From Ginsengibacter hankyongi (GTDB lineage Bacteria; Bacteroidota; Bacteroidia; Chitinophagales; Chitinophagaceae): 64,000 nt of DNA. Within the stretch, counting starts at the first letter, position 1. Each line of letters starts with the position of its first letter. The stretch is from NCBI RefSeq assembly GCF_008710285.1, contig NZ_VYQF01000004.1, positions 124,001 to 188,000 of the forward strand. Direction: 5' to 3'. Of this stretch, positions 55,142-64,000 are shown in pieces. Below the pieces are notes generated by a model, which was not told where the DNA came from, ran no database searches, and saw only the letters and a program-made list of their open reading frames with translations. The position numbers and the translations under genes were made by a program.

Positions 55142-56812
55142 TTAATTGTGGAATATTTTTCTATAGGAATAGTCACCAAATCTTTCATTTGGTTTTCTTT
55201 CTTTTTTAAAATCGGCAAATAATAAATCCAGTTCACGGAGAATTTCAGTTTCGTCCAGGCTTTCTTTATATAACTGGTTTAGCCTGTAACCTTCATGATC
55301 GCCACCTAAATTAAGATTGTATTTTCCTAACGCAGTTCCTATAAAACCTATTTCCGAAACGGACGACCGGCCGCATCCATTGGGGCAACCTGTCATTCTT
55401 GTAATTATATTTTCATCGGACAAATCATACTTTGCAAGTAGTGCTTCAATCTTCGTAAGTAATGAAGGAAGATAGCGCTGTGATTCAGCCAATGCTAAAG
55501 GGCATGTTGGTAATGCCACGCATGCCATTGAATTTTTCCTGATCACAGAAGCATTGTTAGTATGCTCAATAATTTTATATTCTTCTAAAATATCGTTAAT
55601 TTCCTTTTTGTCTTCTGGCGAAACATCACTCACTATTGCTTTTTGATTTGCGGTAAACCTGAATTTTACTTTTCCTGTTTTTGCAATTTTTAGCAAGGCT
55701 GATTTTATAGCCACTTGTTCGTTATCAAGCACTCTTCCATTTTCGACAAAAAGAGTATAATACCAATTACCATTAATATCCTTTTGCCAGCCGTAATAAT
55801 CTTCGCGTTTGTTAAAGACATAAGGCCTTAATTCTTGAAACTTAAAGCCCATACGCTTTTCAACCTCCGCTTTAAATTGATCTACTCCCATTTTATCCAG
55901 GGTATATTTCATCCTTGCCTGCTTTCTGTCAACACGATCGCCATAATCTCTTTGAACCGTTACTATTTCGTAAATCGCGTTAAAAGTTTTTTCTCCTGCT
56001 TCTACGAAACCAATTTCTGTTGCTAATCGTGCGTAAGTATCCGGGTTGCCAAAAGTGAATGCCAGGCCTCCGCCAACAGCAAAATTGAAACCCACTAATT
56101 TTTTATTTTCAATGATGGCGATCAATCCCAGGTCATTACCAAATACATCAATGTCATTGTTAGGCGGAATGCAAATTCCTATTTTAAATTTACGAGGAAG
56201 ATATGCATCACGGTACAAGGCATCTTCTTCCAGTTTTTTATCAACTATTTTTTCTTCATCAAGCCATATTTCATAATAGGCCCTGGTCTTCGGTTTCAGG
56301 AAATTGCTTATTTTATCCGCATATTCAAATATTTCTTCGTGCAGTGGTGATTGCGTAGGATTGGGGCTGCAGGTTACATTCCTGTTTACATCGCCGCAAG
56401 CGGCAATAGAGTCCAGGTGTACCTGGTTAAATATCTTATGAGTTGGTTTTAATCTTGATTTAAGAACCCCATGCAATTGAATGGTTTGGCGTGTTGTGAT
56501 TTTAAGTTCATCTGTAGAATCTTTCCCTGCAATTTCGTTCAGGGCTATCCATTGCTCTGCAGTCAAAATACCTCCCGGCATGCGCAGGCGTATCATGAAT
56601 GAAAACAATCGTTCCAATTTTTTTTGTGCTCTTTCTTCTCTCCGGTCGCGGTCATCCTGCTGATACATTCCATGAAATTTCAGAAGCAGTGTATCCTCTT
56701 CCCGCATGGCGCCTGTTATTTCATTATTTAAGCTCTCAACAATGGTTCCTCGCAGCGCATCTCCGGTAACTTTTATTCTTTCCAGTAACGGTAAATTTTT
56801 TGTATCTGACAT
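55142..56812 (-). CDS. cysI: Assimilatory sulfite reductase, siroheme/Fe-S hemoprotein subunit
   Basis: I chose the ATG at 56812 (MSDTKNLPLLERIKV); longer versions add an unlikely N-terminus. The product has 556 residues. It reduces sulfite to sulfide with six electrons. Siroheme/4Fe-4S cysteines are in ACVALPTCPLALAESQRYLP (Cx5C) and TGCPNGCGRSSVSEIGFIG (Cx3C). Earlier repeats include MIRLRMPGGILTAEQW and TTRQTIQLHGV. The next gene starts exactly at its stop codon, in the same frame. Confidence 0.95.
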   Translation of the reverse strand: MSDTKNLPLLERIKVTGDALRGTIVESLNNEITGAMREEDTLLLKFHGMYQQDDRDRREERAQKKLERLFSFMIRLRMPGGILTAEQWIALNEIAGKDSTDELKITTRQTIQLHGVLKSRLKPTHKIFNQVHLDSIAACGDVNRNVTCSPNPTQSPLHEEIFEYADKISNFLKPKTRAYYEIWLDEEKIVDKKLEEDALYRDAYLPRKFKIGICIPPNNDIDVFGNDLGLIAIIENKKLVGFNFAVGGGLAFTFGNPDTYARLATEIGFVEAGEKTFNAIYEIVTVQRDYGDRVDRKQARMKYTLDKMGVDQFKAEVEKRMGFKFQELRPYVFNKREDYYGWQKDINGNWYYTLFVENGRVLDNEQVAIKSALLKIAKTGKVKFRFTANQKAIVSDVSPEDKKEINDILEEYKIIEHTNNASVIRKNSMACVALPTCPLALAESQRYLPSLLTKIEALLAKYDLSDENIITRMTGCPNGCGRSSVSEIGFIGTALGKYNLNLGGDHEGYRLNQLYKESLDETEILRELDLLFADFKKERKPNERFGDYSYRKIFHN

Positions 56813-56917
56813 GGTTGGTATATGGTTGTGGGTTGTGAAAACTAAATTGTTAATGGTAAAGCGTGAATTATAAAATGGTTGCCTGTTCAAAATCTCCTTT
56901 TACCATTGTCAATTCAA

Positions 56918-58609
56918 TTAATATACATCGGTAACATATTTTCCTTCTTCTTTTAAATCATCAAGATATTTTACCGCGTCAGTGTTTGATCTTTCGCCAA
57001 ATTTTTCAATGATAGCTATTATCGTTTCTTCAACATCAATACTCATCGGATCTTTTGTGCCACATACATATACGTAAGCGCCCGTGTGCAACCATTCAAA
57101 AAATTCGTTTCCATGTTGCATCATCTTATGTTGCACATAAATTTTTTCCTTTTGGTCTCTTGAAAAAGCAGTGCTCACTTTTGTAAGCGTGCCGGTTTCA
57201 AACCAGTTTTGAATTTCACTTTGATATAGAAAATCAGTAACAAAATGTTGTTCTCCAAAGAACAACCAGTTCTTGCCGGTGGCTCCCTTTGCATCCCGTT
57301 CTGCAATGAACGAACGAAATGGTGCAATGCCTGTGCCGGGCCCTATCATAATTATATTTTTATCTTCATCAGGTAGCCTGAACCGGTTATTAGGATGTAT
57401 ATAAAACTGCAACTCATTGTCTGTGTTGAAATGCGATAGAAATTCGGAAGCTAAACCATATTCAATCGTGTCATTTACTTTGAAAGAATTTTTAGCAACT
57501 GTGATATGTATTTCTCCTGCATGCGCTTCGGGCGACGATGCAATAGAATATAACCGGGGTGCGATAGGTTCTAATATTTTTACAACTTCAGTAAATTGAT
57601 CTGCATCTTTTACAGGATATTTTTTAAGCAGCTCCGATAAATCACATCTTTCTATCTGAATATCTTTTTGAATAACTCCCGCATATTGCTTCACCACACG
57701 TTCGGGCAGATAAGTAATATTTAATTTTTTATGTAAAAGATTATATAATGAAATCAATTCGCCTTTATAATCAATGTTAGTAGTATCGTCGATTTTTGTT
57801 AATGCAATAATTTCTTCTATTAAAGCTTTTTTATTCTCAGGAATAATTCCAATAGAATCTCCCGGCTGATAAACTACATCTTCCGCTTCTATTTCTATGT
57901 GATAGGTTTCTTTGTTGCTTTCCCTGTCGTTTAAATTTATGTGAGCCAGCAACTTGCCATTATATATTTTTTTGCCTGATGATTTCTTTGTTACTGTATT
58001 AGGCGCTACAATGGATGGCAGGCTTGTATTATCGTTTAATGCTTTGCATATTTCATTAAACCATTGTTCGGCTTCAGTATCAAAGTCAATGTCGCATTTT
58101 TGTAAAGGGGCAATACGCCTGCCTCCCAGCTTATTTAATTGTTCATCCACGTCTTCTCCAGCTTTGCAAAACAGTGGATAAGATGTGTCGCCAAGTGCCA
58201 GCACGCTGTACTTTAATTTGTCAAGTTTAAATCCATTATTATGTACATGATCGTAAAACTTTTTGGCTGCTGCCGGCGGCTCACCGTCACCGTGAGTACT
58301 AATAACAGCAAGAAAATAATCTTCTTTAGTAAGATCGTTTAAACGGTATTGATCCAAGCTTTGCACCTTTGCCTGAATGCCTTTTTTCTTTGCCTTAACA
58401 GCAAACTCCGTTGCTAATTTTTTTGAGTTGCCGGTTTCTGTTCCATAGGCAATGGTAATTTTGCCAGGGTTGGTTTTTACAGCGATTTTTTCATCGGATG
58501 ACTTTGTTGATACGATGCCATTCAAATATCCATTTATCCAAATCAATTCATCAGAAGTTGATTCGTCAATAAGATGCCGCAAGGTTTTTAATTTATTTTC
58601 AGCTAACAT
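56918..58609 (-). CDS. cysJ: Sulfite reductase flavoprotein subunit (NADPH)
   Basis: The product has 563 residues. Flavodoxin-like FMN domain first (ITIAYGTETGNSKKLATEFA, STHGDGEPPAAAKKFYDHV, YSVLALGDTSYPLFCKAG), then the FAD-binding domain (RLYSIASSPEAHAGEIHITV) and the NADPH-binding domain (MIGPGTGIAPFRSFIAERDA, NWLFFGEQH, YVYVCGTKDPMSIDVEETI). It passes electrons from NADPH to CysI. It overlaps the cobA gene by 11 bases, so translation is coupled. Confidence 0.93.
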   Translation of the reverse strand: MLAENKLKTLRHLIDESTSDELIWINGYLNGIVSTKSSDEKIAVKTNPGKITIAYGTETGNSKKLATEFAVKAKKKGIQAKVQSLDQYRLNDLTKEDYFLAVISTHGDGEPPAAAKKFYDHVHNNGFKLDKLKYSVLALGDTSYPLFCKAGEDVDEQLNKLGGRRIAPLQKCDIDFDTEAEQWFNEICKALNDNTSLPSIVAPNTVTKKSSGKKIYNGKLLAHINLNDRESNKETYHIEIEAEDVVYQPGDSIGIIPENKKALIEEIIALTKIDDTTNIDYKGELISLYNLLHKKLNITYLPERVVKQYAGVIQKDIQIERCDLSELLKKYPVKDADQFTEVVKILEPIAPRLYSIASSPEAHAGEIHITVAKNSFKVNDTIEYGLASEFLSHFNTDNELQFYIHPNNRFRLPDEDKNIIMIGPGTGIAPFRSFIAERDAKGATGKNWLFFGEQHFVTDFLYQSEIQNWFETGTLTKVSTAFSRDQKEKIYVQHKMMQHGNEFFEWLHTGAYVYVCGTKDPMSIDVEETIIAIIEKFGERSNTDAVKYLDDLKEEGKYVTDVY

Positions 58610-59447
58610 GCTTCTGTAAATTTTCCGGGTTAATAATTTTGATTACCTGGCTTGTCACGGGCTTGAAATAATATTCGCCGCTGTTTTTATTTTTAAGCCA
58701 CGCAAATTGTTCATGAAGTGAAACCACTTTTCCGATGATAACTAAAGAAGGTGAAATAAATTTCCTGCCTTTCAATTGTTTTCTATAATCATATAAGTTG
58801 GTAATATGTACATTTTGAAAAGGTGTTGTTGCCTGTTCTATTATTGCCAATAATTTATCTTCATGGATATTATTAGCAGTTAATTTTTCAACTACCTCGT
58901 TCAATGTTTCAGAAGACATATAAAACACCAGGGTATCATCTGAATTAGCTAATTCTTTCCAATAGGCATCCGTAACAATATCAGATTTATAGTAAGTAAG
59001 AAAACGCACCGATGTGGCATAACCTCTTGCGGTAAGCGGAATGCCTGTGGACGCGGCTGCTCCTAACGCTGCGGTAACGCCTGGGATTATTTCATAAGGA
59101 ATATAATTGGCAACCGCCGTTTCTAACTCATCCAGTATATTAGAAAAAACAGATACGTCTCCTCCCTTTAACCTGACAACCAATTTACCTAACAGGCAAT
59201 AGTAAACGATCAATTCATTTATCGTTTGCTGCGGTGTTGAAATACCAAGCCGGCATTGTTTACCTACCGGAATGATTTCAGCACCAGGGTTAACATAAGC
59301 ATGTAAGATTTCATCACTCACCAGGCGATCAACGAGCACAACATCTGCCGCCTGTAAATATCGGGCAGCCTTTACCGTTATAAATTCAGGATCGCCCGGG
59401 CCAGCGCCCGCAATAATCAATTTTCCGTTTTTTAAGTGCTGTTTCAT
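58599..59447 (-). CDS. cobA: Uroporphyrinogen-III C-methyltransferase
   Basis: The product has 282 residues. It methylates uroporphyrinogen III twice to precorrin-2, the first step to siroheme. It starts KLIIAGAGPGDPEFITVKAA with the SAM-binding repeats VVLVDRLVSDEI, VVRLKGGDVSVFS and EIIPGVTAALGAAASTGIP. The length of a bare SUMT, not a CysG fusion; the dehydrogenase/ferrochelatase step is encoded by the fused gene at 52865-54400. The genes for both steps are thus in one operon with sulfite reductase, their cofactor user. Confidence 0.95.
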   Translation of the reverse strand: MKQHLKNGKLIIAGAGPGDPEFITVKAARYLQAADVVLVDRLVSDEILHAYVNPGAEIIPVGKQCRLGISTPQQTINELIVYYCLLGKLVVRLKGGDVSVFSNILDELETAVANYIPYEIIPGVTAALGAAASTGIPLTARGYATSVRFLTYYKSDIVTDAYWKELANSDDTLVFYMSSETLNEVVEKLTANNIHEDKLLAIIEQATTPFQNVHITNLYDYRKQLKGRKFISPSLVIIGKVVSLHEQFAWLKNKNSGEYYFKPVTSQVIKIINPENLQKHVS

Positions 59448-59496
59448 TATCAGTCTACTTAGTTAGTAGGTTATATTTCCAAAAAAATTTATATTA

Positions 59497-60738
59497 TTAT
59501 TGAATCATACAGGCGCCCACAGTAACACAACTTGTTTCATCAATTAATATGGCGCCGCCGTTCTGCCTTAGTTTTTTATAAGGATCAAAAGCGACCGGGG
59601 ATGCGGTTTTAATAGTTACTTTAATAATATCATTTAATACCGCTTTTTCAGGAGATTCATTTTTCTGCAATGTGTTTACGTCTAATTTGTATTCTAATTC
59701 TTTTACAACACATCTTACGAGACGACTATTAATTTGGAGGAAATATTTATTACCCGGCTTCAGAGGTTTGTTATCCATCCAGCATAACATCGCTTCAAAT
59801 TCCTGTGCAATTTTTGGTTGATTATTTTGCTGCACAATCATATCTCCGCGGCTTACATCCACATCATCTTCCAAATGCAATACAACGCTTTGCAAAGCAT
59901 ACGCTTCTTCAATTTCATTGCCGCCAATTTCAATTGCTTTAACGGAGCTTTCAATGCCAGACGGCAGTACTACTACCTTATCACCTTTTTTATAAATACC
60001 ACTGATTACCTTGCCGGCATAACCCCTGTAATCATGAAGATCTTCTGATTGTGGGCGAATAACATACTGTACAGAAAACCTTGCATCTGTAAGGTTAACG
60101 TCAGAATCTAATTGAACATTTTCTAAATGATGCAATAAAGATTCACCATCATACCATGGAAAATGTTTTGACTTTTCTACTATGTTATCTCCGTTCAAAG
60201 CGCTAATGGGGATATATTTTACATCTTTAAGTCCTAATGATTTTGCAACTTCCTGGTAGTCGATAACTATGTTATTATAAACATCCTGTGAATTGCCCAC
60301 TAAATCCATTTTATTAATGGCAACAACTATGTGCGGAATGTTCAGCAACGATGCAATTACGTAATGACGTCTTGTTTGTTCAACAACACCATTTCGTGCA
60401 TCAACCAAAATGATAGCTAACTCGGAATTGGAAGCACCTGTGACCATGTTGCGGGTGTACTGAATATGCCCGGGAGCGTCGGCAATAATAAATTTTCGTT
60501 TAGGGGTTGAAAAATACTTGTAGGCAACATCAATGGTAATGCCCTGTTCACGCTCTGCACGCAGGCCATCCGTTAGTAAGGCCAAATCAATTTCTCCATT
60601 ACTTTTATTCTTACTTTGCTTTTCAATAGCAGCAAGTTGATCAATTAAGATTGATTTGCTATCGAACAATAATCTTCCGATTAATGTACTCTTGCCATCA
60701 TCAACACTTCCGGCAGTTATAAATCTTAGAATGTCCAT
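59497..60738 (-). CDS. cysN: Sulfate adenylyltransferase subunit 1 (GTPase)
   Basis: The product has 413 residues. EF-Tu-like GTPase with P-loop AGSVDDGKSTLIGRLLFDS, switch II DAPGHIQYTRNMVTGASN and NKMDLVG, then beta-barrel domains II and III (RYRGYAGKVISG type segments: DLHDYRGYAGKVISGIYKKG). GTP hydrolysis drives the CysD reaction. There is no fused APS kinase domain, consistent with the direct APS route suggested by CysH. Confidence 0.95.
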   Translation of the reverse strand: MDILRFITAGSVDDGKSTLIGRLLFDSKSILIDQLAAIEKQSKNKSNGEIDLALLTDGLRAEREQGITIDVAYKYFSTPKRKFIIADAPGHIQYTRNMVTGASNSELAIILVDARNGVVEQTRRHYVIASLLNIPHIVVAINKMDLVGNSQDVYNNIVIDYQEVAKSLGLKDVKYIPISALNGDNIVEKSKHFPWYDGESLLHHLENVQLDSDVNLTDARFSVQYVIRPQSEDLHDYRGYAGKVISGIYKKGDKVVVLPSGIESSVKAIEIGGNEIEEAYALQSVVLHLEDDVDVSRGDMIVQQNNQPKIAQEFEAMLCWMDNKPLKPGNKYFLQINSRLVRCVVKELEYKLDVNTLQKNESPEKAVLNDIIKVTIKTASPVAFDPYKKLRQNGGAILIDETSCVTVGACMIQ

Positions 60739-60831
60739 ATTTATGAGTTGTCAATTGTGAGTTGTTAATTGTGAATTGTCAATAGCGAAGGCCAGTCTAG
60801 TTAACTAACCGTTGACCATTCACCATTCACT

Positions 60832-61740
60832 TTAAAAATATCCCGTCTTCTTCCTGTCTTCCATTGCTGCTTCTGAAACTTTATCATCTATTCTTGTTTC
60901 GCCGCGTTCGCTGGTTTTAGTAGCAATAATTTCTCTAATGATATCATCAATGTTCGACGCATTTGATTCCACGGCAGCAGTACAAGTCATATCACCAACG
61001 GTGCGATAGCGAACTTTTTTTGTTGATACAACATCACTTTCATCGGGAATAATAAATTCAGAAACCGATACTAACTGTCCTTCGTACTCGATAACTTCTC
61101 TTTCATGAGCGAAATAGATGGAAGGCAATTCTATATTTTCTCTTTTAATATAATTCCATATATCAAGCTCAGTCCAGTTGCTGATTGGGAAAGCTCTTAC
61201 GTTTTCTCCTTTATGGATTTTTCCATTATAAATATTCCATAATTCAGGTCTTTGTAGTTTCGGATCCCACTGACCAAATTCATCTCTCACAGAAAATATT
61301 CTTTCCTTCGCTCTTGCTTTTTCTTCATCTCTTCTTGCACCACCAATTAATGCATCAAATTTGAACTCTTCAATAATATCAAGCAGTGTATAAGTTTGTA
61401 ACGAATTTCTACTTGCAAATTTTCCTTTCTGTTCTGTAAGATTTTTTTCCTTAATAGTATCTGCTACTTTTCTTACAATTAATTTTTCGCCAATTGTGTT
61501 TACCAGTTCATCCCTGAAATGCAAAGCTTCAGGGAAATTATGTCCTGTATCAATGTGTACTAACGGGAAAGGGAATTTCCCTGGCCGGAAAGCTTTTAAT
61601 GCAAGATGAACCAATGTTATTGAATCTTTGCCACCTGAAAAAAGCAATGCAGGACGCTCAAACTGGCCTGCCACTTCACGCATAATGTGTATCGCTTCCG
61701 ATTCCAATTGCCCCAAATAATCTAAATGATATTTACTCAT
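60832..61740 (-). CDS. cysD: Sulfate adenylyltransferase subunit 2
   Basis: I chose the ATG at 61740 (MSKYHLDYLGQLESEAIHIM), giving the usual 302 residues; the longer frame overlaps cysH. It forms APS from ATP and sulfate. The PP-loop is ALLFSGGKDSITLVHLA, and FPLVHIDTGHNFPEALHFRD, IGGARRDEEKARAKERIFS and DIWNYIKRENIELPSIYFAH are the other family blocks. It is 16 bases downstream of cysH and upstream of cysN. Confidence 0.95.
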   Translation of the reverse strand: MSKYHLDYLGQLESEAIHIMREVAGQFERPALLFSGGKDSITLVHLALKAFRPGKFPFPLVHIDTGHNFPEALHFRDELVNTIGEKLIVRKVADTIKEKNLTEQKGKFASRNSLQTYTLLDIIEEFKFDALIGGARRDEEKARAKERIFSVRDEFGQWDPKLQRPELWNIYNGKIHKGENVRAFPISNWTELDIWNYIKRENIELPSIYFAHEREVIEYEGQLVSVSEFIIPDESDVVSTKKVRYRTVGDMTCTAAVESNASNIDDIIREIIATKTSERGETRIDDKVSEAAMEDRKKTGYF

Positions 61741-61756
61741 CTTTAATTTATTTAAC

Positions 61757-62482
61757 TCATGATGCCTGCTGATGTATGTGCAGGCCACATTCTTTTTTAG
61801 TATTATCTTCCCACCACCAACGTCCTGCACGAAAATCTTCGCCGGGCCTTATGGCTCTAGTACATGGTGCGCATCCAATGCTCACAAAACCTTTATCATG
61901 TAACGAGTTGTAAGGAATGTCGTTTTCATTAACGTATTGTTTTACTTCTTCAGTGGTCCAGTTAAGTATAGGATGATATTTTATAATGTTGTTACTCTCA
62001 TCCCACTCAACCCTTGGCATATCATGACGCTCAGCAGAATGTTCTGCACGAAGGCCTGTGATCCATATTGAATTATCTTTTAGTGCTCTTTTTAGAGGAG
62101 CTACTTTTCGTATGTAGCAACAGTCTTTCCTGTTTTCGACAGATTCGTAAAAAGAATTGGGGCCTTTTTCAGCAACAAAATTTTCCAGCGATATGGTATC
62201 AGGATAAAATGCCTTTACATGTGTATCGTATTTTTCGTTGGTGGCCCTCCAAACAGAATAAGTTTCCGGGAATAATCTCCCTGTGTCTAATGTAAAAATT
62301 TTTATGGGTAGGTGATTATTTAAAATTTTATGACTGATAACCTGGTCTTCATAACTGAAGCTTGTTGAGAAAATTACTTCACCTGGAAATTGACTGGTCA
62401 ACGCCAATAGAACTTCATCAATGTTTAAAACATTTGCTGCGTCTGCTATTGATGAGACTTTATCTTTTAGCTGTTGAAACAT
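61757..62482 (-). CDS. cysH: Assimilatory adenylylsulfate (APS) reductase
   Basis: The product has 241 residues. PP-loop family reductase: VIFSTSFSYEDQVI and IKIFTLDTGRLFPETYSVW. The cluster cysteines CC in RKDCCYIRKVAPLKRAL and CxxC in SIGCAPCTRAIRPGEDFR are the 4Fe-4S signature of APS reductases, and the catalytic Cys is in KECGLHIHQ at the end. PAPS reductases of the E. coli type lack the CC/CxxC set. This means sulfate is reduced at the APS level without CysC, which is not found here. It is the first structural gene of the operon, behind the Cys leader. Confidence 0.93.
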   Translation of the reverse strand: MFQQLKDKVSSIADAANVLNIDEVLLALTSQFPGEVIFSTSFSYEDQVISHKILNNHLPIKIFTLDTGRLFPETYSVWRATNEKYDTHVKAFYPDTISLENFVAEKGPNSFYESVENRKDCCYIRKVAPLKRALKDNSIWITGLRAEHSAERHDMPRVEWDESNNIIKYHPILNWTTEEVKQYVNENDIPYNSLHDKGFVSIGCAPCTRAIRPGEDFRAGRWWWEDNTKKECGLHIHQQAS

Positions 62483-62532
62483 TTTATTATTAATAGTTTG
62501 ATGGATTTATAAAAGAGAATTTTATTGAAATG

Positions 62533-62567
62533 GTTGTTGCTTTATGGAATTAATAATCAGCAACAAC
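62533..62567 (-). promoter_or_regulatory. Hairpin formed by the Cys-Cys-Cys codons and a post-stop arm
   Basis: On the minus strand GTTGTTGC (62567-62560), made of the three Cys codons, is exactly complementary to GCAACAAC (62540-62533), with a 19-base loop that includes the leader stop. GCAAC inside the leader (62582-62578) can alternatively pair with the end of the same arm. No T-run follows, so this is not a typical intrinsic terminator. It lies about 50 bases before the cysH ATG. Confidence 0.65.
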
Positions 62568-62622
62568 AGGGCATCGAGTTGCCACAATTGCACATATTAA
62601 TGAGCGGAAAGAATGACTTCAT
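62557..62622 (-). CDS. Cysteine-rich leader peptide of the cys operon, 21 residues
   Basis: The ATG at 62622-62620 opens 21 codons that end Cys-Cys-Cys-TGA at 62557. It begins MKSFFPLIN, continues MCNCGNSM and ends PCCC. Five of 21 residues are Cys, including three adjacent at the stop. It begins about 20 bases after the expected transcription start and lies 75 bases before cysH. A short ORF with a Cys tract at its end, ahead of a cysteine/sulfur operon, is the layout known for the Cys-responsive leader in mycobacteria. The role here is inferred; the peptide itself is unlikely to be the active agent. Confidence 0.75.
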   Translation of the reverse strand: MKSFFPLINMCNCGNSMPCCC

Positions 62623-62638
62623 ATTATTTTAATTCTAA

Positions 62639-62661
62639 TAGTCTACCACAAAAGTAGGGTA
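62639..62661 (-). promoter_or_regulatory. cys operon promoter inside a TAnnCTAC-N7-GTAGnnTA palindrome
   Basis: CTAC (62643-62646) and GTAG (62654-62657), separated by seven bases, are flanked by symmetric TA pairs (62639-62640 and 62660-62661). On the minus strand the same DNA contains TACTTTTG (62656-62649), a perfect Bacteroidota -7 element, with TTTC 21 bases upstream as a weak -33. A protein bound to the palindrome would block the promoter. The half-sites recall Rrf2-family (IscR/CymR-like) operators, but no such regulator is encoded in the window. Confidence 0.6.
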
Positions 62662-63093
62662 TAGATTTTTAAAAATTGAAAATATTTTTAAACATTACCA
62701 TTAATTATATTAAAACAATAAGAAAAAAATAAAAATAAATGATGTAAGCGTTGTGCCAAAGTCTTTATGGGCCAGTGTTTCAGCAACTGATGTTGAAAGT
62801 TTATTTATTGTAAAATATTTTTTTGAAAATTTTAAAATCATAACAATACAATAAAAAGAACAATTGCATCTGGTAATAATTTTAATTTTTTATTGATCCA
62901 TATCAATGGAATTTCTTATCTCACCTCAATGGATGGAAGCATATAGCCATGGTAGCTTTGCGGTATAAAAGTTTATATAAATGATTGACAAGAAAAAGAC
63001 TCGAATGGTTTTTGTTCCCAAAGTAAGAAGAGGGAAAGAAAAACTTTTTATACAACAACATGCATAATTTATACATTAAAAATTAAAATCAAC
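62662..63093. other. Divergent intergenic region before DoxX gene
   Basis: About 430 bases. A -7 match TAGCTTTG lies at 62953-62960 on the plus strand without a good -33. A 28-codon basic ORF (62981-63067, MIDKKKTRMVFVPKV...) follows it, but nothing supports its translation. The rest is A+T-rich with no visible gene. Confidence 0.4.
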
Positions 63094-63543
63094 ATGAAAA
63101 AATTATTAGCAACAAATTCGAACAACTGGATGGCTTTAATAGCACGGCTTGCAGTAGGGATTACTATTTTTCCACATGGCGCTCAAAAATTATTGGGATG
63201 GTTTGGAGGTTATGGTTATAATGGTACAATGGGATTTTTAACCGGGCAAATACATCTTCCGTGGATTATCGCTTTGCTTGTAATTTTAATTGAATTTTTT
63301 GGGTCCCTGTTTTTAATATTTGGTTTTCTTACACGGATAGCAGCCTTTGCAATTTTGGGAAGTTTTTTAGGTGTACTCTTTAAAGTTCATATTCAAAATG
63401 GATTTTTTATGAACTGGGGGATGCAGCCTAACAAGGGAGAAGGCTATGAATTTTTCATTTTACTTTTCGGCCTGGCGCTTATTGCATTAATTGCAGGGGG
63501 TGGTAAAGCAAGTGTAGACGCAGCAATTACAAAGAATAAATAA
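63094..63543 (+). CDS. DoxX-family membrane protein
   Basis: The product has 149 residues with four membrane helices. Typical segments are ALIARLAVGITIFPHGAQKLLGWFGGYG, FFGSLFLIFGFLTRIAAFAIL and GEGYEFFILLFGLALIALIAGGG. The HGAQKLLGWFGG stretch is characteristic of the DoxX/YphA-type oxidoreductase-associated proteins. It is followed 57 bases later by the dioxygenase gene, a pairing seen in many genomes. The function is not firmly known. Confidence 0.88.
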   Translation: MKKLLATNSNNWMALIARLAVGITIFPHGAQKLLGWFGGYGYNGTMGFLTGQIHLPWIIALLVILIEFFGSLFLIFGFLTRIAAFAILGSFLGVLFKVHIQNGFFMNWGMQPNKGEGYEFFILLFGLALIALIAGGGKASVDAAITKNK

Positions 63544-63600: not shown

Positions 63601-64000
63601 ATGACAACATTATCTGATTTTAAAAAATTTACCACTAATCTGAAAAAACAGGATCATTTGATGCCTGTTTTATTTATTGGTCATGGTTCTCCCATGAATG
63701 GGATTGAACATAACCAGTTTAGTGAAAACTGGGCGAACCTTGCAAAGGAAATTCCTTTGCCTACAGCGATATTAGTAGTTTCAGCTCATTGGTTAAGTCG
63801 TGGCACGAAAATTACCGCTATGGATTTTCCTCAAACTATACATGACTTTGGTGGTTTTCCCCAGGAATTATTTGATGTACAATATCCTGCTCCGGGTAAT
63901 CCGCAACTGGCACAGGAAACTGCTTCGATCATTAAATCAACCAATGTAGAATTAAATCATGATTGGGGCCTGGACCATGGCGCATGGACGGTTATACGAA
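63601..64000 (+). CDS. ygiD: 4,5-DOPA dioxygenase extradiol-like protein (YgiD), C-terminus outside window
   Basis: The ATG at 63601 opens a frame to the window end (133 residues). The LigB-type extradiol fold is marked by PVLFIGHGSPMNGIEHNQFS (metal His), AILVVSAHWLSRGTKITAMD, TIHDFGGFPQELFDVQYPAPG and DWGLDHGAWTV. These match class III ring-opening dioxygenases of the YgiD/DODA group. The physiological substrate in bacteria is uncertain. It likely shares a transcript with the DoxX gene. Confidence 0.9.
   Translation, partial: MTTLSDFKKFTTNLKKQDHLMPVLFIGHGSPMNGIEHNQFSENWANLAKEIPLPTAILVVSAHWLSRGTKITAMDFPQTIHDFGGFPQELFDVQYPAPGNPQLAQETASIIKSTNVELNHDWGLDHGAWTVIR

Follow-up and report, generated by a model that had tools for sequence, protein, structure and literature searches.

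In the 64,000-nt stretch of Ginsengibacter hankyongi DNA analyzed here (the window; its source genome is referred to as the own genome), the cysH operon is preceded by a 21-codon ORF whose last three codons before the stop specify cysteine and which is very probably a translated, Cys-sensing leader. What comparison between genomes shows is the ORF itself with its Cys tail, its location behind a predicted promoter, selection acting on its reading frame (in one genus) and the composition of the spacer that follows it. For the full statement, a leader that would sense Cys-tRNA and have Rho as its output, we consider the chances about even. Features of the leader region and of related loci are collected in Table 1.

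Table 1. Features of the cysH leader region and of related loci. Positions are those of the window unless a locus (L number) is given.
Feature	Position or loci	Strand	Description and basis
Leader ORF	62557..62622	minus	21 codons, MKSFFPLINMCNCGNSMPCCC, stop TGA; 5 Cys codons
Terminal Cys codons	62560..62568	minus	TGT TGT TGC, directly before TGA; read from sequence
Hairpin 5′ arm	62559..62567	minus	Cys codons and first stop base; fold; not conserved in relatives
Hairpin 3′ arm, AGCAACAAC	62533..62541	minus	Fold; not conserved in relatives
Predicted promoter box, TACTTTTG	62649..62656	minus	Matches Bacteroidota -7 box TAnnTTTG
Palindrome CTAC-N7-GTAG over promoter box	62643..62657	minus	Probable (predicted) site of a regulator protein
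Spacer, leader stop to cysH	62483..62556	minus	74 nt, C-rich, G-poor; proposed Rho-loading region, suggested by composition
cysH, first large gene of operon	61757..62482	minus	PF01507; NF002537 phosphoadenylyl-sulfate reductase
Remaining operon: cysD, cysN, cobA-type methylase, cysJ-like reductase, cysI	55142..61740	minus	ORFs and Pfam
Sulfite-reductase operon loci with Cys-containing ORF	L112, L119, L123, L126, L127, L129, L131, L133, L134, L135, L143
metY leader loci listed for hairpin/Cys-Met-Pro	L310, L108, L286, L290, L292, L293, L298, L299, L303, L308, L309
SAM riboswitch RF00162	L108:1595-1703		metY at 2145; Rfam match
SAM riboswitch and Cys leader at same gene, further loci	L286, L290, L292, L293, L303, L308, L309

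The preliminary description of this DNA had reported a 21-codon ORF with five Cys codons, the last three abutting the stop, and the sequence bears this out. Its naming of the downstream genes as cysH-cysD-cysN-cobA-cysJ-cysI agrees with the Pfam matches, with cobA better called cobA-type and cysJ cysJ-like: cysH and cysD matched PAPS_reduct, cysN matched GTP_EFTU, the cobA-type gene matched tetrapyrrole methylase, the cysJ-like gene matched flavodoxin/FAD/NAD reductase domains and cysI matched NIR_SIR sulfite reductase. As in attenuation leaders, the short upstream ORF is rich in codons for the end product of the pathway. Gene finders usually skip ORFs as short as such leaders, which measured 11-36 codons in the set assembled here. 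The 21-aa peptide matched no family in NCBIfam, and Rfam gave no match at gathering score at the five cysH leaders searched (window, L002, L007, L024, and L220). Beside the cys operon, divergent genes of the DoxX and LigB families were observed on the plus strand at 63094-63543 and 63601-63999, respectively.

When 147 genomes from Chitinophagaceae, the family of the window, were searched for CysH, 89 gave a match, and the upstream DNA of all 89 was read. An ATG-initiated ORF with a terminal Cys cluster was found at 38 of these 89 loci, four others having been excluded by hand: L018 and L039 had no CC and lay inside another gene, L025 had its promoter box 3′ of the ORF, and the ORF of L069 lay inside cysH (the count is 40 if L025 and L069 are kept). 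When a strict rule was applied with no exclusions (an ATG ORF of 7-45 aa, no more than 250 nt before cysH, with at least 3 Cys among its last 8 residues), 35 of the 89 loci passed, compared with a mean of 0.5 and a maximum of 1 in ten shuffled sets and with 0 of 140 regions preceding other genes; thus the leader is not a product of chance. Sources of these 140 controls were 55 kb of the window and 20 stretches of 20 kb, 19 of which belong to genomes with a leader. The leader was present at 36 of the 62 loci that had no co-directional ORF within 100 nt upstream of cysH vs. 2 of the 27 that had one (p = 5e-6). No such leader was seen at 51 of the 89 loci, including 26 of the 62 cysH-first loci. 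At many leaderless loci cysH followed an AhpC-TSA peroxiredoxin-type gene (Pfam for one, L036), and at others Rrf2-type or cysteine-synthase-like frames were recognized by eye near cysH.

A wider family search of 394 genomes yielded four more CysH-bearing genomes of the window's genus, all of which kept the leader with the common pattern MC...M.CC, and five further genomes of the genus with no CysH match at a cut-off of 1e-108. Twenty-five loci were read following this search, the window and L002 included, and 19 had a CC leader and six did not. A set of 63 leaders, several from close relatives, was assembled from the 38 family leaders, 17 from the wider search and 8 from named loci; as its members were selected for the Cys tail it gives no frequencies, and one-per-genome statistics rest on the 38 leaders. 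In this set, chosen for the Cys tail, all 63 leaders had Cys among the last 3 residues and 46 ended in Cys. Between genera the Cys tail was constant while the N-terminal parts varied. Within genus g71, comparison of the first 21 codons of nine leaders gave a pN/pS of 0.21, with 87% identity in the ORF vs. 61% in the spacer, and an alignment of six of these leaders showed an ungapped ORF body followed by a gappy spacer. By this comparison the leader ORF of genus g71 is under purifying selection as a reading frame. The preliminary description had proposed a search of related genomes for the ORF, its Cys run and the complementary arm downstream; the ORF, by its position and Cys content, and the Cys run proved to be conserved across much of Chitinophagaceae but the matching arm did not.

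Cys runs before stop codons were also counted elsewhere. The pattern (TGY)4-TAR was matched in 46 of 60 genomes, a count without context that says little. In the own genome a stop codon ended 41 of 56 TGYTGYTGYTRR sites. Besides the leader, 40 such stop-ending sites were examined as possible leaders and none was convincing: six had an in-frame ATG, all six overlapped another open frame of at least 100 codons, and the three that were read closely were antisense to long ORFs.

The predicted promoter of the leader contains a match to TAnnTTTG, which we take to be the consensus of the Bacteroidota -7 element. Transcription is predicted to start near 62643, and from the position of the box the transcript should begin ~20 nt 5′ of the leader ORF. 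Of the 63 leaders, 53 had a -7 box no more than 90 nt 5′ of their ATG, compared with 9 of 140 controls, for which a fixed 90-nt stretch was read that may miss control promoters. A transcription start downstream of 62557, named in the preliminary description as contrary to its own reading, found no hint in the sequence, the Bacteroidota-type box lying 5′ of the ORF.

The spacer between the leader stop and cysH had a median length of 62 nt (range 36-134), and its first 62 nt in the window contained 21% C and 1.6% G. Pyrimidines made up 65% of spacers vs. 53% of controls, C exceeded G at 35 of 38 loci vs. 80 of 140 controls, YC dimers numbered 15.3 per 100 nt in spacers vs. 9.5 in controls (p = 6e-6), and the folding energy per nt was half that of controls. 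C-rich, G-poor, YC-rich and weakly folded RNA bears the usual marks of Rho-loading sites, and the own genome encodes a Rho gene. By the statistics over 38 loci, then, unstructured C-rich, G-poor RNA follows the leader as it does in Rho-dependent attenuators, and the spacer resembles a Rho-loading site in its composition, which is not proof. A low-structure spacer could also simply favor initiation at cysH, the start region of which was predicted to be slightly more open than in shuffles.

The preliminary description had assigned a working role to a perfect 8-bp hairpin between the Cys codons and an arm after the stop, to be held open by a ribosome waiting for Cys-tRNA. The hairpin does exist, with one pair more than was stated (GUUGUUGCU with AGCAACAAC, 9 bp); the 64-nt stretch folds with a z of -3.93 and the whole 192-nt leader with a z of only -1.38. 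A second pairing within the ORF, GCAAC with GTTGC, is possible on paper, but the predicted fold pairs GGCA with UGCC instead. These observations bear on structure-based translational attenuation, in which either the Cys codons pair downstream or the cysH start is masked by a hairpin, until a stalled ribosome makes that start accessible; such a mode is reported for mycobacteria. The window hairpin speaks for such an arrangement, being the strongest downstream pairing among 63 leaders (z -3.65), as do the 11 of 63 loci in which a ribosome on the Cys run was predicted to yield an opening gain of at least 2 kcal/mol at the cysH start. On the other hand, the last Cys run paired with downstream RNA at p < 0.05 in 7 of 63 leaders and in 0 of 4 same-genus relatives, and pairing with upstream RNA was significant in 6 of 63; the overall bias was slight (mean z -0.36 downstream, -0.53 upstream), and 3 of 38 leaders were positive in an earlier test that took a longer tail. 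The opening gain averaged 0.85 kcal/mol for real and 0.84 for shuffled spacers (p = 0.75); for the window it was 0.0. As a conserved element the hairpin was therefore rejected family-wide and kept as a feature of the window genome; unmasking of the cysH start by a stalled ribosome had no family-wide signal in these predictions, and a shared working role for the hairpin was not supported. A fold may serve single species, the modeling having detected none shared by the family, and we regard structure-based attenuation as unlikely for the leaders in general. A classical attenuator with an intrinsic terminator found no support: no terminator-like site was found in positions 62300-62800 of the window, as the preliminary description had maintained, and such sites occurred in 1 of 63 leaders vs. 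3 of 189 shuffles, i.e., not beyond chance.

Another explanation would have the stalled ribosome act through message stability, or through coupling to the cysH start, with neither Rho nor a fold involved. It agrees with the short predicted distance from the 5′ end to the ORF and with the lack of a shared fold or terminator among the leaders searched; the stop-to-cysH distances given above are long for coupling, however, and the C-rich, G-poor spacer is left unexplained, so that this explanation seems rather improbable. It could further be argued that a regulator protein bound at the palindrome controls the operon and that the ORF is incidental. The pattern C[TC]AY-N7-RT[AG]G was found in 43 of 63 cysH leaders, 9 of 17 metY leaders (see below) and 0 of 140 control stretches, Rrf2-type regulator genes occur near cysH in several relatives (Pfam for L119), and a homolog with 56% identity is encoded on another contig of the own genome, making an Rrf2-type protein a candidate regulator on sequence grounds. 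Since the palindrome stands before both cysH and metY leaders, a regulator protein probably acts too. Selection on the ORF and its Cys tail would go unexplained if this were all, and a purely incidental ORF is highly improbable; we think that a regulator layer and a leader layer, which can coexist, do so here. Slightly less probable still is a nascent peptide that senses metal or thiols rather than Cys-tRNA. The peptide is rich in Cys, and PMC9973294 deals with a nascent-protein copper sensor, as far as the available part of that paper goes. Against this, the N-terminal parts vary between genera, and Cys is made last, beside sulfur-assimilation genes; residues made last would still be inside the ribosome and hardly able to act as a folded sensor, and scarcity of Cys-tRNA would be their natural signal.

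With neither a terminator nor a shared fold, a Rho scheme with a layout like that of tnaC, read by Cys-tRNA, is favored. The terminal Cys codons of the translated leader would measure charged Cys-tRNA. When cysteine is plentiful the ribosome would complete the leader and depart at the stop, leaving the spacer bare, and Rho would end transcription before cysH or early within it. When Cys-tRNA is short the ribosome would slow on the last codons and cover the stop codon along with the first part of the spacer; the bare RNA would thereby be shortened, Rho kept off the spacer, and transcription would proceed into cysH. We infer the signal (Cys-tRNA), the output (Rho) and the direction of the response. 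Counting against the Rho scheme are the strong hairpin of the own genome and the cysH loci that lack a leader. Where the preliminary description had left the output as either translational or Rho-dependent, Rho fits best by the composition of the spacer, predicted unmasking of the start being equal to shuffles.

Cys leaders were also observed at other loci. In a second set of 80 named loci, of which 79 were read (L164 had no DNA upstream of the match), a Cys-tailed ORF lay shortly before cysH in 12, some of them in the same genomes as the family search. The 12 include the Cytophagales genome Rufibacter ruber CCM 8646 (MVYPSHIERMRFCCCSPCCCCC), Sediminibacterium sp. Gen4 and, as a weaker case, Flavobacterium urocaniciphilum. 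At 24 loci, nearly all from Sphingobacteriaceae, a sulfite-reductase gene was upstream instead (Pfam NIR_SIR for L119), and a looser Cys-containing ORF ended 75-101 nt before this gene at 11 of the 24, compared with 4 of the 45 local controls (p = 0.001); five of the 11 ORFs contain Cys-Cys-Met. The case for this variant is weaker, since the loose rule was also passed by 9 of 140 Chitinophagaceae controls. Two of the four passing local controls (L128 and L129) precede Porin_O_P genes near cysH in Mucilaginibacter; the ORF of L128, before 9319, ends in seven Cys, and that of L129, before 7281, in two.

The gene metY (O-acetylhomoserine sulfhydrylase, TIGR01326) was matched in 35 of 79 Chitinophagaceae genomes. 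Thirty loci and L108 were taken up, and with L291 not located, 30 were examined, 16 of which, including that of the own genome, had Cys leaders. A CC rule was likewise passed by 16 of the 30; L300 was dropped, its Cys being far from the end, and L310, the own-genome leader with two separate Cys and no CC, was added by choice. L310 ends ...MCGRCMP (contig C1 near 1195930), and many metY leaders end in Cys-Met-Pro. RNA directly after the last Cys codon folded better than shuffles in 13 of 16 metY leaders (mean z -2.84); the same test on cysH leaders gave 3 of 63. A conserved hairpin of the form AUGCC-N3..6-GGCAU was present in 11 of the 16, with the stop codon in its loop in most and displaced further on in some. 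A SAM riboswitch (RF00162) was found upstream of 8 of the 16 leader-bearing metY loci and of 6 further metY loci, and a separate promoter may lie between riboswitch and Cys leader. Four genomes, the own one included, have both cysH and metY leaders. The Cys leader system thus apparently spans several operons. It is conceivable, with a chance we would put somewhat short of even, that Bacteroidota possess a multi-operon Cys regulon read by ribosomes, in which cysH leaders would work fold-free through Rho and metY leaders through a stop-codon hairpin, half of them with a SAM riboswitch, with the sulfite-reductase leaders belonging as well. If so, a metY gene with leader and SAM riboswitch would read both SAM and Cys-tRNA.

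The preliminary description held that a poly-Cys leader is known from mycobacteria and knew of none described in Bacteroidota. Our literature search, with subscription papers mostly outside its reach, likewise found no Cys leader in this phylum. For Flavobacterium psychrophilum, the available part of PMC9723704 gives hints of attenuation by leader peptides upstream of amino-acid operons and does not name cysteine there, and that of PMC7366714 mentions short ORFs in long 5′ UTRs of Bacteroidota. If our reading is right, two phyla that are far apart would both have poly-Cys attenuation of the same layout, i.e., a Cys run at the stop, no terminator and a pyrimidine-rich spacer; Bacteroidota would gain a testable, ribosome-read sulfur regulon, and the suggestion made in 2005 that Cys leaders work through Rho would become testable.

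Ahead of the tryptophanase operon of E. coli, the tnaC leader detects free tryptophan by means of its nascent peptide. It resembles the arrangement proposed here in that a ribosome would wait where a short leader ends, next to a site for Rho loading, but the signal of the Bacteroidota leader would be scarce Cys-tRNA. In mycobacteria, polycysteine leaderless short ORFs are reportedly Cys-responsive attenuators of several operons, as said of work by Canestrari et al. in 2020. They share with the Bacteroidota leaders the poly-Cys leader, the response to cysteine (which in Bacteroidota we infer) and the presence at several operons; unlike the Bacteroidota leaders, for which a short 5′ UTR was predicted and no shared fold was found, they are said to lie on leaderless mRNAs with folds that hide the ribosome-binding site. 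The available part of PMC13236596 also mentions translation attenuation by mycobacterial polycysteine ORFs. The uORFC-8-2 motif before cysS of Rhodobacterales likewise has Cys codons in a short upstream ORF; as far as PMC8632094 is available, these are tandem codons, the RNA that contains them has two stems and an intrinsic terminator, and the gene that follows encodes a tRNA synthetase. A further comparison is with PMC1262725 (Seliverstov et al. 2005), the available part of which names tnaC and gives candidate Cys leaders of cys/cbs operons in Mycobacterium, Propionibacterium acnes and Bifidobacterium longum, with Cys runs near the stop, no terminators and a suggestion of Rho through polyY motifs, a prediction called weak there. 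These leaders, too, combine a Cys run near the stop before cys operons with a Rho-type pyrimidine region and no conserved terminator; they belong to another phylum, and no relationship between the peptides is established in the part compared. Whereas the polyY sites are called not conserved by those authors, the Bacteroidota spacer composition holds over 38 loci compared with controls. Leaders of this kind are known from Actinobacteria, and the Bacteroidota leader is a variant of them that belongs to another phylum.
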